Positions 60,296-64,000 of a stretch of DNA of 64,000 bases are shown piece by piece. The notes beneath the pieces were generated by a model, which was given only the letters and a program-made list of their open reading frames with translations, was not told the origin of the DNA and ran no database searches. Positions within the stretch are counted from its first letter, which is position 1; the number at the start of each line of letters is the position of its first letter. The stretch lies in contig NZ_CP035382.1 in the NCBI RefSeq assembly GCF_006874705.1, forward strand, positions 186,001 to 250,000. The letters run 5' to 3'. Source of the DNA: Leclercia adecarboxylata (GTDB taxonomy: Bacteria > Pseudomonadota > Gammaproteobacteria > Enterobacterales > Enterobacteriaceae). Made by a program: the position numbers and the translations under genes.

Positions 60296-60341
60296 GGTAT
60301 CGCTCCTGCCTTGCGCGAAGAAGCGATTGCCCGGAGGGCAT

Positions 60342-60422
60342 CTGACTTCCCTACGCTGGCATTATCCAGATCAGGTGGTACGGGTATTTCTCAGCCTTCA
60401 CAAAGAAGGGCACCCCGAGTCA
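60342..60422 (-). promoter_or_regulatory. TPP riboswitch controlling thiMD
   Basis: On the minus strand: GACTCGGGGTGCCC, CTGAGAAATACCCGTA, CACCTGATCTGGATAATGCC and AGCGTAGGGAAGTC, the conserved THI-box core. In the E. coli thiM riboswitch TPP binding hides the ribosome site; the sequence between the aptamer and the AGGAG (60303-60307) is compatible with that. Confidence 0.97.
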
Positions 60423-60610
60423 AATAAATCAAAATCAAAAGCTTGCGATTAATGCTCCTCATTAATCCCTGATCAGGATAGTAATGCCAGCGGGAAGTCT
60501 TGTAAACGGCAAAAGCGGCCCTTTTGGTCTATGTGTGACAGGTTGAGTGACACAATGTGTGCCATGTAGAATGCTCTTAAGTTATCAACTACCGCATAAA
60601 AAAAGAGGTC
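60423..60610 (+). promoter_or_regulatory. Junction region with a candidate promoter for the plus-strand phage-side gene
   Basis: TTGAGT (60543-60548), 18 bases, TAGAAT (60567-60572), then an ATG with an AGAGGT site at 60604-60609. GC falls sharply here compared with the thi genes, so the boundary between core genome and phage-like island is close. No integrase, tRNA or att repeat can be identified in this window. Confidence 0.5.
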
Positions 60611-61246
60611 ATGATGGATTTACAAGCATGGGATAACGTTATCTCTATCGCTTCGAATGCTGTAACAGGTTTAAGCGTGGTTGCTGGCGTCATCTTCGGC
60701 GGGGTTAAACTTCAGGAGATGGTGAAAAACAAGAAAATGGAGCAAGCTTTCGCCTCTGCAATAGCGCTTAAAGGTGAGATTGATGCTACGAGGGGCCGTT
60801 ATAATCGTATGCGTTTTGACCTTACACGCATAATGACTTTTATCGACACGCTCGCAAAGTCTGGTCAAAAAGTAGATCAAGAAAGCTACTATCAGATTCA
60901 AGGTTCCTTGAGAGATATGGCGGAAAACACCTTTCGTATTGGTAGCTGTTTCGTCAAAGTTAGCCACTATAACGTTGCCATTAAACAACCAGCTTGGGAA
61001 CCATTTAACGCTCTTCTACACTCTGCTGGTGAAACGCAAATAGCTATATCGAAATTAGTAAACCTCATCACGCAGGCCTTGCTTAAAGAGCAGATAACAA
61101 CGGAGGAATTCGAGACAATTCGTAATCTTTATGATGAACATGGTGAACAGATGAAAGGCGTTAATTACGCTATCGCCGGGATAGATATTATTAAATTTGA
61201 TGAATTGTTTGACTTCAGCAAAGTTAATAAAAAAAGCCGGGATTAA
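60611..61246 (+). CDS. Hypothetical protein at the prophage edge (membrane-anchored, helical)
   Basis: 211 residues (or 210 from the second ATG, 60614). The N-terminus has one hydrophobic segment (AVTGLSVVAGVIFGGV, ~17-32) followed by MVKNKKMEQ, then a long, mostly alpha-helical part rich in Lys, Glu and Ile with possible coiled-coil. No known motif. It is transcribed opposite to the phage structural genes and has its own promoter, typical of a moron or defence/immunity cargo gene, but the function is unknown. Confidence 0.6.
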   Translation: MMDLQAWDNVISIASNAVTGLSVVAGVIFGGVKLQEMVKNKKMEQAFASAIALKGEIDATRGRYNRMRFDLTRIMTFIDTLAKSGQKVDQESYYQIQGSLRDMAENTFRIGSCFVKVSHYNVAIKQPAWEPFNALLHSAGETQIAISKLVNLITQALLKEQITTEEFETIRNLYDEHGEQMKGVNYAIAGIDIIKFDELFDFSKVNKKSRD

Positions 61247-61540: not shown

Positions 61541-62566
61541 TTACTCACCCGTTGAGGTGGTCAGTTTGGTAATCATCGATAGATCATAGATGAGCGGCAG
61601 AACGCCAAATTCTGACATCACGGTTTTGTTACCCAGGCGGTCATCAAAGCTGTACTGGAAAAACTCAGCTCGTGTACCCGCAGCGGCAATCTTCGCATTA
61701 CGTGAGGCAGGACCGGAGACGACTTCCAGTGGGGTATGGTCTGACGGAATAATGTTGTCTGCAAACACAGGAACCATTACAGCACTACCAGCAGATAGAT
61801 ATTGCTCATAGCCGATGACATTAACAAACACGAGACCATCCAATTCAAAAGCGCTAAAGGCCGGGAGGTTTGCTCGTACAGCACTATTAAACAGCGTGGA
61901 CTGAGGTAGAACGCCATGAGCGACTAGGGTACGGATCTCGGCGTGATATTTCACTGACTTATAGAAAGTCGGGTCACACAGAACCACGATACCTTTGAGA
62001 GCCTTAACCCAGCCGCCAAGGTTGACACGTAGTGCAGTTGCGGCGGTGTCCAGTGACTCCAGCGGACCAGTTGAACCAACATCGATTACAGCGCTGGAAT
62101 AATCCTCACCGAACTCTTCAGAGAAATCGACAACCTGCTGTTGAGTATATGGTGTGTTAACGACACCAGTAAACAGCGCCCTGGCGAGTACATCTTCTTT
62201 TGTGGTACGGAACTTCATATACTGGCGGATTGATTCATCGCTAACCAGCTCGTCCATATTCTGCTGGCGCTGCGTGCCGGGACGGCGAATCCCCTGGAAC
62301 ATGCTCGCGTCAACTTCACCTGATAGTACCCAATGTGGAATTTCCAGTAAGCGGTTCAGACTCAGATCCCGCTCTGTGCCAACCAGTTCCGTCCCATAGC
62401 GGTTCACAGACTCCGCAACGGAGATTTTGCCAGCTCGCAAGTCGTCCGTTTCAATTTTTGGTGTATCGCTATGTTTTTCTTGGAAGATGCCTAATTCCTG
62501 AATCAGGAAATTATTTCCGAAAGGCTTAGTGAAAACGCCAGTGAAATCGTTATATTTAAAATCCAT
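61541..62566 (-). CDS. Phage major capsid protein (lambda gpE family)
   Basis: 341 residues, the usual size for the family. N-terminal TGVFTKPFGNNFLIQELGIF and the central VNRYGTELVGTERDLSLNRLLEIPHW, with PGTQRQQNMDELV; C-terminal FSFDDRLGNKTV-like segment (YSFDDRLGNKTVMSEFGVLPL) and IYDLSMITKLTT. Expected HK97-fold head protein forming the icosahedral shell. AAGGA ribosome site 8 bases before the ATG. It follows the decoration protein gene, as in lambda (D then E). Confidence 0.85.
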   Translation of the reverse strand: MDFKYNDFTGVFTKPFGNNFLIQELGIFQEKHSDTPKIETDDLRAGKISVAESVNRYGTELVGTERDLSLNRLLEIPHWVLSGEVDASMFQGIRRPGTQRQQNMDELVSDESIRQYMKFRTTKEDVLARALFTGVVNTPYTQQQVVDFSEEFGEDYSSAVIDVGSTGPLESLDTAATALRVNLGGWVKALKGIVVLCDPTFYKSVKYHAEIRTLVAHGVLPQSTLFNSAVRANLPAFSAFELDGLVFVNVIGYEQYLSAGSAVMVPVFADNIIPSDHTPLEVVSGPASRNAKIAAAGTRAEFFQYSFDDRLGNKTVMSEFGVLPLIYDLSMITKLTTSTGE

Positions 62567-62577
62567 TTTTATTGTCC

Positions 62578-62907
62578 TTATTCAGAAACACGATTCAGGC
62601 CAGAGGCCTCAATTTGAGCGATAGCATTCGTAACGGCGGTTGCATCGGTGCCAATCAATCCGGCTCGGTTCAGTACACAACCACGGTCAACCACAATCAC
62701 AGGGACATTCGAGCCTGCCTTGTGGCTATCAAGAGCGATCAACAGGTCATTACCTGACTCATAAGCGGTGCCATCACTGGCTAACAGAGTGCCAGGAACA
62801 GTATCAATTGCCAGAGTGGTAAAAACTCGGGTCTTATGTGAGAACACAGGATCGTCACGGTAAATTACTACGTCACGGAAGGAGCGTTCTTCTGTAGCTA
62901 CAATCAT
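62578..62907 (-). CDS. Phage head decoration protein (lambda gpD-like)
   Basis: 109 residues from the third of three in-frame ATGs, with GGAG 6 bases before it (earlier ones: 62919, 62910). Small beta-rich protein with PGTLLASDGTAYESGNDLL and the ALDSHKAGSNVPVIVVDRGCVLNRAGL tail typical of the head-decoration family. It would cap trimeric sites on the capsid. The assignment is from general pattern and from its place just before the capsid gene. Confidence 0.7.
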   Translation of the reverse strand: MIVATEERSFRDVVIYRDDPVFSHKTRVFTTLAIDTVPGTLLASDGTAYESGNDLLIALDSHKAGSNVPVIVVDRGCVLNRAGLIGTDATAVTNAIAQIEASGLNRVSE

Positions 62908-62973
62908 CATTAACTCCATAGTTTTTTTATATTATTTGTACATCCGACATATTCGTCAGACGGCAGGTAAGAA

Positions 62974-62993
62974 AAACGCCAATTAAGGCGTTT
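62974..62993 (-). terminator. Terminator-like hairpin in the phage intergenic region
   Basis: On the minus strand, AAACGCC-TTAATT-GGCGTTTTTC: a 7-bp stem with a run of Ts. It could terminate minus-strand transcription upstream of the decoration gene. On the plus strand a TTTTTT follows 6 bases after the stem, so it is possibly bidirectional. Confidence 0.5.
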
Positions 62994-63008
62994 AACGGTT
63001 TTTTACAT

Positions 63009-63376
63009 GTCAGAAAAAGCCGTGGCGGGAAATAACCCGCCCGGTAGTAGGAGAAATAACGATGATGTTATTGATTTCTGACAGTAGGAATGAGGGAGCA
63101 ACACCGCCAATTGCGGACATCCACGACCGTTAGAAAGCGGCGTTGGCTCGGTGCCAGTTTGCATCATGGCAAGATGACCGACGAGGAGAGCGCCGGATTA
63201 ATGGCCTAATCCAGGGTGACCCGGAGTAGTACGTCTTTTCTGAATACAACCAGCGGTTGGCGAAAACCTTCCCGTGAGAGTAGGCCGCTTAGCGGTGAAC
63301 CAGAGGTTCATCACTTCGTGACCGGAGAGAGTGCGGATATTGGCTGTATTTAGAAAAGGCGCTCTTGGCGAAGCGC
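63009..63376 (+). ncRNA. Candidate large structured RNA in the phage region
   Basis: A ~370-base stretch with no long ORF in any frame and many short perfect stems: GTCAGAAA/TTTCTGAC (63009-63016, 63075-63082) closing a multi-branch with GGCGGG/CCCGCC and AATAAC/GTTATT hairpins; TCGGT/ACCGA stacked on CATC/GATG (63148-63181); GGATTA/TAATCC (63195-63212); TGAACC/GGTTCA (63296-63310); TCAC/GTGA (63311-63321); GCGCT/AGCGC (63359-63376). Loops are purine-rich on the plus strand, so I place it there. It ends just before a strong ribosome site and a mini-ORF. Family unknown; HEARO/omega-RNA-like layout is a guess. Confidence 0.5.
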
Positions 63377-63401
63377 ACTTTATATTTTGTAAGGAGAAGG
63401 A

Positions 63402-63470
63402 ATGACAACGGCTGTTGTACGCACATATAATTTAAATTATCACCCTATGCAATTATTTTATCACGAATGA
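63402..63470 (+). CDS. 22-residue ORF with strong ribosome site after the structured RNA
   Basis: AAGGAGAAGGA immediately upstream of ATG (63402), then MTTAVVRTYNLNYHPMQLFY and a stop at 63470. Too short to identify. It may be a leader peptide, a remnant of a larger gene, or chance; the ribosome site is the strongest in the region. Confidence 0.35.
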   Translation: MTTAVVRTYNLNYHPMQLFYHE

Positions 63471-63527
63471 TTATCATTTGCAACAAATTTCACGGAAAGC
63501 TATTGATTTCTCGATAAATTTGATATG

Positions 63528-63557: not shown

Positions 63558-64000
63558 TTAGCCAGAAATACCCAAGATAAGGTTGGTATTTTTCCTGTCC
63601 TGTTCCTGTACCTCAGCCTTAATTGCATCGCTGAATTTGCTATCGTCAATGCTGAGTTTAACCTCGTTGGTCACAGTCAGATCGGCCTTGCCCTCAACAC
63701 TGAATGGCTTGCCAAGGTTCATACCATAAGCAAGATTATCAATGCCCGGTAGTTGTGCCATGCCTGCGGTAGTTGGCTGAAGTCCGGGTAAGGTATTCAT
63801 CCCCGAAAACGCATTAGTGAAGCCCTGCGCATGGTCAGCAAAGAAGTTTTTGATATCAGTCCAAAGGGTTGGCTTGTCGTTGTTGGCCTGCACTTTAGCA
63901 AGGAAGCCCTGTGGATCGGCCTGAATATCATCAAGCTGATTGTTTAGGCTAACACCTGCCATGATTGCAGGTAGACCGATTGAGATGCCCCCACCTTTAG
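63558..64000 (-). CDS. Probable phage tail tape measure protein, C-terminal part (cut by window edge)
   Basis: The frame is open from the window edge to 63558 with a Gly-rich stretch (GGGISIGLPAI) before an internal Met, so I treat this as a C-terminal fragment of a longer protein. It contains NNQLDDIQADPQGFLAKVQ, Gly/Pro/Met-rich linker segments and a C-terminal domain GKADLTVTNEVKLSIDDSKF with a charged helix DAIKAEVQEQDRKN, as seen at the ends of tape measure or other virion proteins. The precise identity is inference. Confidence 0.55.
   Translation of the reverse strand, partial: KGGGISIGLPAIMAGVSLNNQLDDIQADPQGFLAKVQANNDKPTLWTDIKNFFADHAQGFTNAFSGMNTLPGLQPTTAGMAQLPGIDNLAYGMNLGKPFSVEGKADLTVTNEVKLSIDDSKFSDAIKAEVQEQDRKNTNLILGISG

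Follow-up and report, generated by a model that had tools for sequence, protein, structure and literature searches.

The CI RNA of P4 is a satellite-encoded regulatory RNA that acts on the early operon; the RNA described below would likewise be satellite-encoded, and CI RNA is far shorter. GOLLD and ROOL, large and ornate RNAs of phage-type elements, lie frequently, not universally, near tRNA genes (PMC7567579) and form homo-oligomeric complexes (PMC12286853). The account in PMC7567579 names P4 CI RNA among the regulatory RNAs of satellites and phages, and reports abundant noncoding RNAs of unknown function from PLE satellites (the inter-inverted-repeat, or IIR, transcript) and from their helper ICP1 (an RNA of ~800 nt), the IIR transcript having antisense homology to PLE leaders. 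PLE and ICP1 are V. cholerae elements, and the likeness of their RNAs to the satellite RNA is one of description. The staphylococcal RNAs RNAIII and RsaA bind Shine-Dalgarno sites through C-rich stretches (PMC2837412; PMC3961350).

The locus considered here occupies the gap between a decoration-protein gene and a tape-measure gene in the window, the whole 64-kb stretch of DNA that was analysed. It probably encodes a structured noncoding RNA of ~480 nt that is read from the minus strand, starts at a sigma-70-type promoter of its own and reaches terminator-like hairpins ahead of the decoration and capsid genes; this RNA would represent a family found in capsid-encoding Enterobacteriaceae satellites. 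The promoter, the terminator-like sites, a covarying pseudoknot, an asymmetry in G-U pairs and repeated co-location all argue for this reading. No title or abstract opening among those found by the literature searches describes this RNA. The preliminary description had compared the layout to HEARO/omega RNAs, GOLLD and ROOL, a likeness not borne out by Rfam release 15, which gives no match at the gathering score in the RNA region of the window or of 11 related loci. Matches at up to E 5 are short or weak and far below the gathering score (best E 3.6 in the window, 0.24 in L152 and 0.79 in L158). HEARO/omega RNAs are also long and structured, but the neighbors here are decoration/capsid and tape-measure genes, with no adjacent IscB/IsrB-type gene. 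GOLLD and ROOL share large size and a phage-type setting with this RNA, but no Rfam match; the tRNA scan, which covered the 64-kb window and the part of the element inside it, found no tRNA gene.

The carrier element and its likely helpers

The RNA region belongs to an integrated element of ~12.8 kb (G000:C3 ~246.6-259.4 kb; locus L019 600-13400), its extent judged by gene content, which runs from window position 60600 to past 64000, so that the window ends inside it. Its gene order is a 211-aa gene on the plus strand, a 71-aa gene, the major capsid gene, the decoration gene, the 638-base gap, a 728-aa tape-measure gene, small genes, a replication-initiator-like gene (275 aa), a DUF4062 gene and an integrase. 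The major capsid gene (61541..62566, minus) matches PF03864 at E 5e-15 and phrog_29. The decoration gene (62578..62919, minus), next downstream of the RNA, matches phrog_2680 at E 2e-7 and has no Pfam match; its ORF starts at 62919, and relatives suggest the ATG at 62910 as the true start. Upstream of the RNA promoter lies the 3' end of the tape-measure gene (63558..63998, minus, stop at 63558; PF20155, phrog_5255), which extends beyond the window end.

The element combines an integrase and structural genes with an incomplete set of virion genes, and in this it resembles a phage satellite. No terminase or portal is found among the ten element proteins scanned, and every scanned ORF above 300 aa matches some other family. 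The "phage unit" of the preliminary description is a phage-type element that looks like a satellite. Capsid-forming PICIs carry their own terminase and portal alongside a capsid gene, and in this respect the ten scanned proteins set the element apart. Some capsid-forming PICIs have putative tape-measure genes, and PLE11 uses a tape measure of its own to make chimeric tails (PMC12987554). A TPP riboswitch adjoins the element (Rfam), as it does the satellites of E. coli TC24 and H8. In all three, the thiM/TPP-riboswitch side is an integration spot (60331-60611 in the window, 2987-3268 in L002 and 4312-4762 in L113).

The helpers are likely to be virulent Vequintavirinae-like myoviruses, because the capsid and tape-measure matches and the PHROGs of phage FENT2 point there. 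The tape measure matches 1362 phage records, all below 60% identity and widely spread, and the best 10 of the 1362 come from genomes of 144-151 kb. The capsid protein has few phage matches, and weak ones: at E up to 0.01 there are 28 records, the best 10 of which have 23-25% identity, and nine of these are from phages of 137-155 kb. The two capsid-match phages inspected, FENT2 and UPEC06, belong to the Vequintavirinae, and the capsid, decoration and tape-measure proteins of FENT2 fall in the same three PHROGs as those of the satellite. The capsid protein of a related locus, L003, has no phage match at E 1e-5. In a structure-based tree without statistical support, the ICP1 capsid protein is basal in a branch shared with a Vequintavirinae phage (PMC12846349).

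Strand, predicted promoter and terminator-like sites

The preliminary description had noted some 640 bases without a long ORF on either strand, and the decoration–tape-measure interval indeed spans 638 bases, with longest internal ORFs of 54, 45 and 45 aa in the ORF list. The gap folds more stably than its shuffles on both strands (z -4.3 on plus, -7.8 on minus; 0/100 shuffles equally stable on either), as does the predicted minus-strand transcript of ~62970-63448 (z -6.8, 0/100).

The RNA is most likely transcribed on minus, the strand that also carries the capsid genes. The earlier proposal of a plus-strand RNA running against the phage genes is disfavored by promoter, folding and G-U counts, and the strong ribosome site at which that RNA was thought to end, TAAGGAGAAGG on plus, is complementary to a UCUCCUU segment. 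A plus-strand ORF following TAAGGAGAAGG was considered and set aside, being by eye without conservation in an alignment of 11 regions. Single-sequence folding z-scores are better on minus in 11/11 regions, one of them a near tie (-3.61 vs -3.57), and in all four groups the consensus energy favors minus. In Watson-Crick-only consensus structures from 28 loci (L102 being left out of this count in addition to the exclusions given below), 56 cells are G-U on minus vs 20 on plus, the cells not being independent of one another. In the hairpin domain closed by GAGC/GCUC (see below), G000 and G037 each have one inner-stem pair that is G-U when read on minus, where plus would give A-C. The RNAalifold covariation term, for which negative values are favorable, gives no support in the rough whole-RNA alignments of the four groups and leans slightly to plus in all of them (minus 0.7, -0.4, 6.0 and 9.6; plus -1.0, -4.0, 2.5 and 3.8).

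The promoter, TTGCAA-N17-TAAAAT with a TG before the -10 (63455..63483, minus), predicts an RNA start at ~63448. With our own pattern, taking the best match per region, promoters of this kind are found on the capsid-gene strand in 29/37 regions, lying 472-894 nt upstream of the decoration gene. All 29 have a TAAAAT -10 and 17-nt spacing, 28 have the TG one base ahead of the -10, and the -35 is TTGCAA, TTGATA or similar; spacer sequence varies. The window spacer (63461-63477) contains the palindrome ATGATAATCATT, and 12/29 promoters have the exact spacer palindrome ATGATWATCATT. The palindrome resembles a Fur box and, as a candidate Fur site, might put the RNA under iron regulation. On the plus strand, a strong promoter-like site (ATGACA-18-TATAAT, 11 of 12, 63402-63431) points away from the RNA into tape-measure antisense, and by eye has counterparts in few relatives only.

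Two terminator-like hairpins lie at 62972..63041 on the minus strand, one at 63041-63024 followed by ACGGCUUUUU and one at 62993-62974 followed by UUC. The first was scored as terminator-like on minus and the second on plus only; neither scored in our own terminator script, and the window's own minus-strand terminator is weak. Across the loci, terminator-like sites occur in 20/29 on minus and 12/29 on plus, where shuffles lead one to expect ~0.2 in all, and 17/29 loci have a minus-strand site no more than 195 nt from the decoration gene. Within the final 130 nt ahead of that gene, a second sigma-70-like promoter is found in 1/29 regions (2.0 expected from shuffles). The single exception is the window itself, with CTGACG-17-AATAAT (9 of 12) at 62959-62931. 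Between terminator and decoration gene, the window also has a variable inverted repeat, CCGGCATATTCGCCGG and similar, at 62940-62960, with counterparts elsewhere, possibly an mRNA hairpin or an operator. A common operator palindrome among the regions was suspected, and the scan for it was unconvincing.

Architecture, relatives and a second satellite family

The predicted RNA (~62972..63448, minus, 5' end near 63448) rests on promoter position, folding, homologues and the strand tests, and divides into several domains, all given here on the minus strand. The 5' hairpin GCGC..GCGC (63359..63376) was rated terminator-like as well, on plus and on minus, and relatives have other sequence at the same place. 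A long helix of CTTTTCTAAATACAGCCA and TGGTTGTATTCAGAAAAG (arms at plus 63341-63358 and 63235-63252) closes a branched domain at 63235..63358; other complementary arms occur in L001, L003, L035, L107, L113 and L130, and in the remaining relatives the best helix of the script differs from it. Within the branched domain lies a variable hairpin stretch (63284..63325) with the TCACTTCGTGA hairpin. This hairpin had been singled out in the preliminary description and does exist, but its stretch is a gap in 9/11 aligned regions. A hairpin GGTTCATCACTTYGTGACC is common to this stretch and to L130 and L140 near 1457, at different places of the region. The TCACTTCGTGA stretch has one copy in the host genome, ruling out a host dispersed repeat, and its 10-mer matches in L112, L159 and L160 turned out to be other sequence.

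The most conserved module (63149..63201), in which a CUCUCCUC-loop hairpin precedes an H-type pseudoknot, scores 57.8 bits (E 5e-11) against a covariance model of which the window core was itself part. The hairpin, CCGGCG-CUCUCCUC-GUCGG (63178..63196), keeps a similar loop in relatives and has its stem replaced, as judged by eye and uncounted. The pseudoknot, CAUC-UU-GCCA-U-GAUG-CAAAC-UGGC (63153..63176), is identified by recurrence and covariation. It is present in 23/29 RNAs, missing in four long-type RNAs and interrupted in two by one T-T mismatch; this count permitted G-U and not A-C pairs, and hence says nothing on strand. In 21 aligned sequences its covariation score is 0.272 vs 0.177 in shuffles, none of 500 reaching it, and structures slid by 1-3 columns score 0.002-0.089. 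Its helices are 93.5% paired, with three of the 21 rows (L001, L034 and L112) misaligned in stem 2 and counted there as unpaired. Cells changed on both sides number 13 vs 4.1 in shuffles, 10 of the 13 in stem 1, and pairs with such a change number 4 vs 1.9, a value that 7/500 shuffles reach. Further pair types (7) are not above shuffles (8.0). The stem 2 variants are GCCA/UGGC, GCCG/CGGC and GUCA/UGAC.

Toward the 3' end, the alignment and the predicted fold give a hairpin domain closed by GAGC/GCUC (63096..63149), and the predicted folds a multi-branch closed by UGUCAGAAA/UUUCUGACA that holds the UUUCUCCU segment (63009..63082), with comparable closing arms in several aligned relatives. This multi-branch and the short stems listed in the preliminary description thus recur in the predicted folds. 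Its broader claim of a large structured noncoding RNA in a phage-type element gains support from the covariation of helices among relatives, a check that the description itself had proposed.

Relatives were reached by several routes. With the window region as query, blastn matches 35/5426 complete E. coli genomes and 9/99 relatives; with strain TC24 as query it matches 46/5426 E. coli and 11/392 family genomes, the weakest perhaps by chance. A decoration-protein model at E 1e-5 matches 18/392 family genomes and 9/61 genus genomes (some of these belonging to the second family described below), along with 4/20 and 2/4 genomes in two other genera; across the order at E 1e-20 it matches 3/394 genomes, all three already found. 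Against INPHARED phages and PLSDB plasmids, blastn gives no match to the RNA region. In this way 37 distinct regions upstream of decoration genes were collected, most of them through the decoration protein, and 29 were used. The eight left out are L005, where the RNA is interrupted in its genome (G037); L111, L114 and L151, in which the promoter pattern is unmatched (L104, of the same decoration type, has TAAGAT as a possible -10); and L104, L105, L133 and L156, which are without a credible promoter.

Between G037 and the window the RNA is 98% identical over 252 bases and the capsid protein 26.8% identical, and exchange of RNA blocks between satellites therefore seems likely, as though parts are swapped as modules. 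In G037 (L020 near 8900) an apparent insertion sequence, judged by eye, splits the RNA close to its 5' end. The RNA region, decoration gene and capsid gene stay together in SCU-316, the second element of 90-1, L117 and L031, where the tape-measure gene lies elsewhere and in the opposite direction. A promoter-pattern scan of genome contigs gives 64 stretches, with a decoration or capsid match only in L051, L052 and L082. A covariance model of the core, in which stem 1 alone of the pseudoknot is encoded, finds 29/45 sources, some of them being one place entered twice and several being in the model. When the core model was used to search from the RNA first, it found 8 places in 7/237 genomes, of which seven adjoin a decoration gene and the eighth is in G287 (E 0.006).

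Other capsid-bearing elements form a second satellite family (G008 near C1:936 kb), found in 14/5426 E. coli genomes and, in AR_0128, beside tRNA-Thr. Here ~610-680 nt separate a mostly TTGACA-type promoter from a small gene that precedes the decoration and capsid genes. Structured regions lie before capsid genes at 15956-16650 of L158 and 8001-8671 of L169. The family has swapped hairpins and a terminator-like GGGGC..GCCCCUUUUU, and the RNA start AUAGGGU is common to 5/7 second-family and 7/29 first-family RNAs. Consensus energy of its alignment favors the capsid-gene sense (-64.8 vs -39.3 for the opposite), and G-U counts do not separate the strands (10 vs 12). The UCUCC excess of its RNAs is modest and singly significant in 2/7, L137 being included only in part, and blastn against phages gives no match. 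The second family is treated here as an analogue of the first and is perhaps a relative.

UCUCC segments, competing explanations and significance

The RNAs are rich in UCUCC, which is complementary to GGAGA ribosome-binding sites: 29 RNAs have 99 copies vs 26.5 expected, and GGAGA occurs twice. The excess is singly significant at 0.05 in 19/29 RNAs and not in the other 10. In 18 RNAs UCUCCU is the top enriched hexamer (34 vs 4.8 expected), and 88/111 CUCC sites are predicted to be more unpaired than the mean of their own RNA. The window has sites at plus 63050-63054, 63185-63189, 63324-63328 and 63393-63397. The segment GATCACCTCCT is also present in L015 and L018, and we take it to equal part of the 16S rRNA 3' end.

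A tentative mechanism follows from these segments. The RNA would accumulate separately in the late phase and act in trans by using its UCUCC(U) segments to pair with the GGAGA-type ribosome sites of late mRNAs, thereby tuning capsid and tail output for the satellite. Like RNAIII and RsaA, the RNA has several segments complementary to ribosome-binding sites that are predicted to be mostly unpaired, but the staphylococcal RNAs come from other bacteria and have other structures, and no target emerged for the satellite RNA. In predicted pairing of 8 RNAs with two proxy phages (FENT2 and UPEC06), preferred structural targets are not found, the decoration, capsid and tape-measure mRNAs ranking 12-60 of 52 or 65. 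Discrimination between self and non-self is likewise unsupported: GGAGA lies in the ribosome-site region of 23/65 satellite genes, one gene start probably being misplaced, vs 11/52 in FENT2 and 16/65 in UPEC06.

A leader or attenuator of the capsid operon is as likely as a trans-acting RNA. Such a cis-acting RNA, quite possibly a long leader at the 5' end of the decoration-capsid operon with free RNA as a by-product, would have terminators that halt polymerase until read-through is permitted by a factor from helper or satellite, or by the RNA fold itself. Lambda-type late antitermination provides a precedent. The near-absence of a second sigma-70-like promoter (1/29 regions) suggests that the capsid genes may depend on read-through, and this lack of a conserved second promoter raises the leader model and slightly lowers the trans model. 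The linkage of RNA, decoration and capsid where the tape measure is elsewhere and the order of promoter, RNA and terminator ahead of capsid genes in the second family also favor a leader. However, the window itself has a candidate second promoter, the search is blind to a helper-dependent promoter of another type, and the pseudoknot and repeated motifs exceed the needs of a plain leader.

The remaining explanations are far less probable. Repeated loop motifs might bind capsid or packaging proteins and aid particle assembly or filling; this improbable virion or assembly role would agree with the repeated capsid-gene linkage in two satellite families and with the homo-oligomers of GOLLD and ROOL (PMC12286853), but the linkage is partly built in, most regions having been collected via the decoration protein. 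CsrB titrates CsrA, and on the plus strand AGGA-loop hairpins could form a sponge of this type, as the GGAGA-rich loops seen in the preliminary description and the slight plus lean of the RNAalifold term would allow; the G-U excess, the better consensus energy in 4/4 groups, the promoter and the more common terminator-like sites all favor minus, making a sponge very improbable. An origin or packaging site acting as DNA, with no RNA function, would agree with the need of satellites for such sites and with the abundance of inverted repeats, but it is the least credible, the one-strand G-U excess, pseudoknot, promoter and terminator-like sites fitting an RNA.

In the trans-acting reading, the wider implication, which is rather unlikely as a whole, is that these RNAs form a new class of large satellite RNAs, in at least two lineages and just ahead of capsid genes, whose repeated anti-Shine-Dalgarno segments would let satellites of virulent myoviruses control late translation. 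Known bacterial RNAs of such size and complexity are few, and for the phage ones the roles are still open. The RNA is present in sequenced E. coli and Enterobacter strains, and because the likely helper group is cultured and the element is small and defined with a clear promoter, function is directly testable. Satellites would then have RNA as a further tool for exploiting phages.
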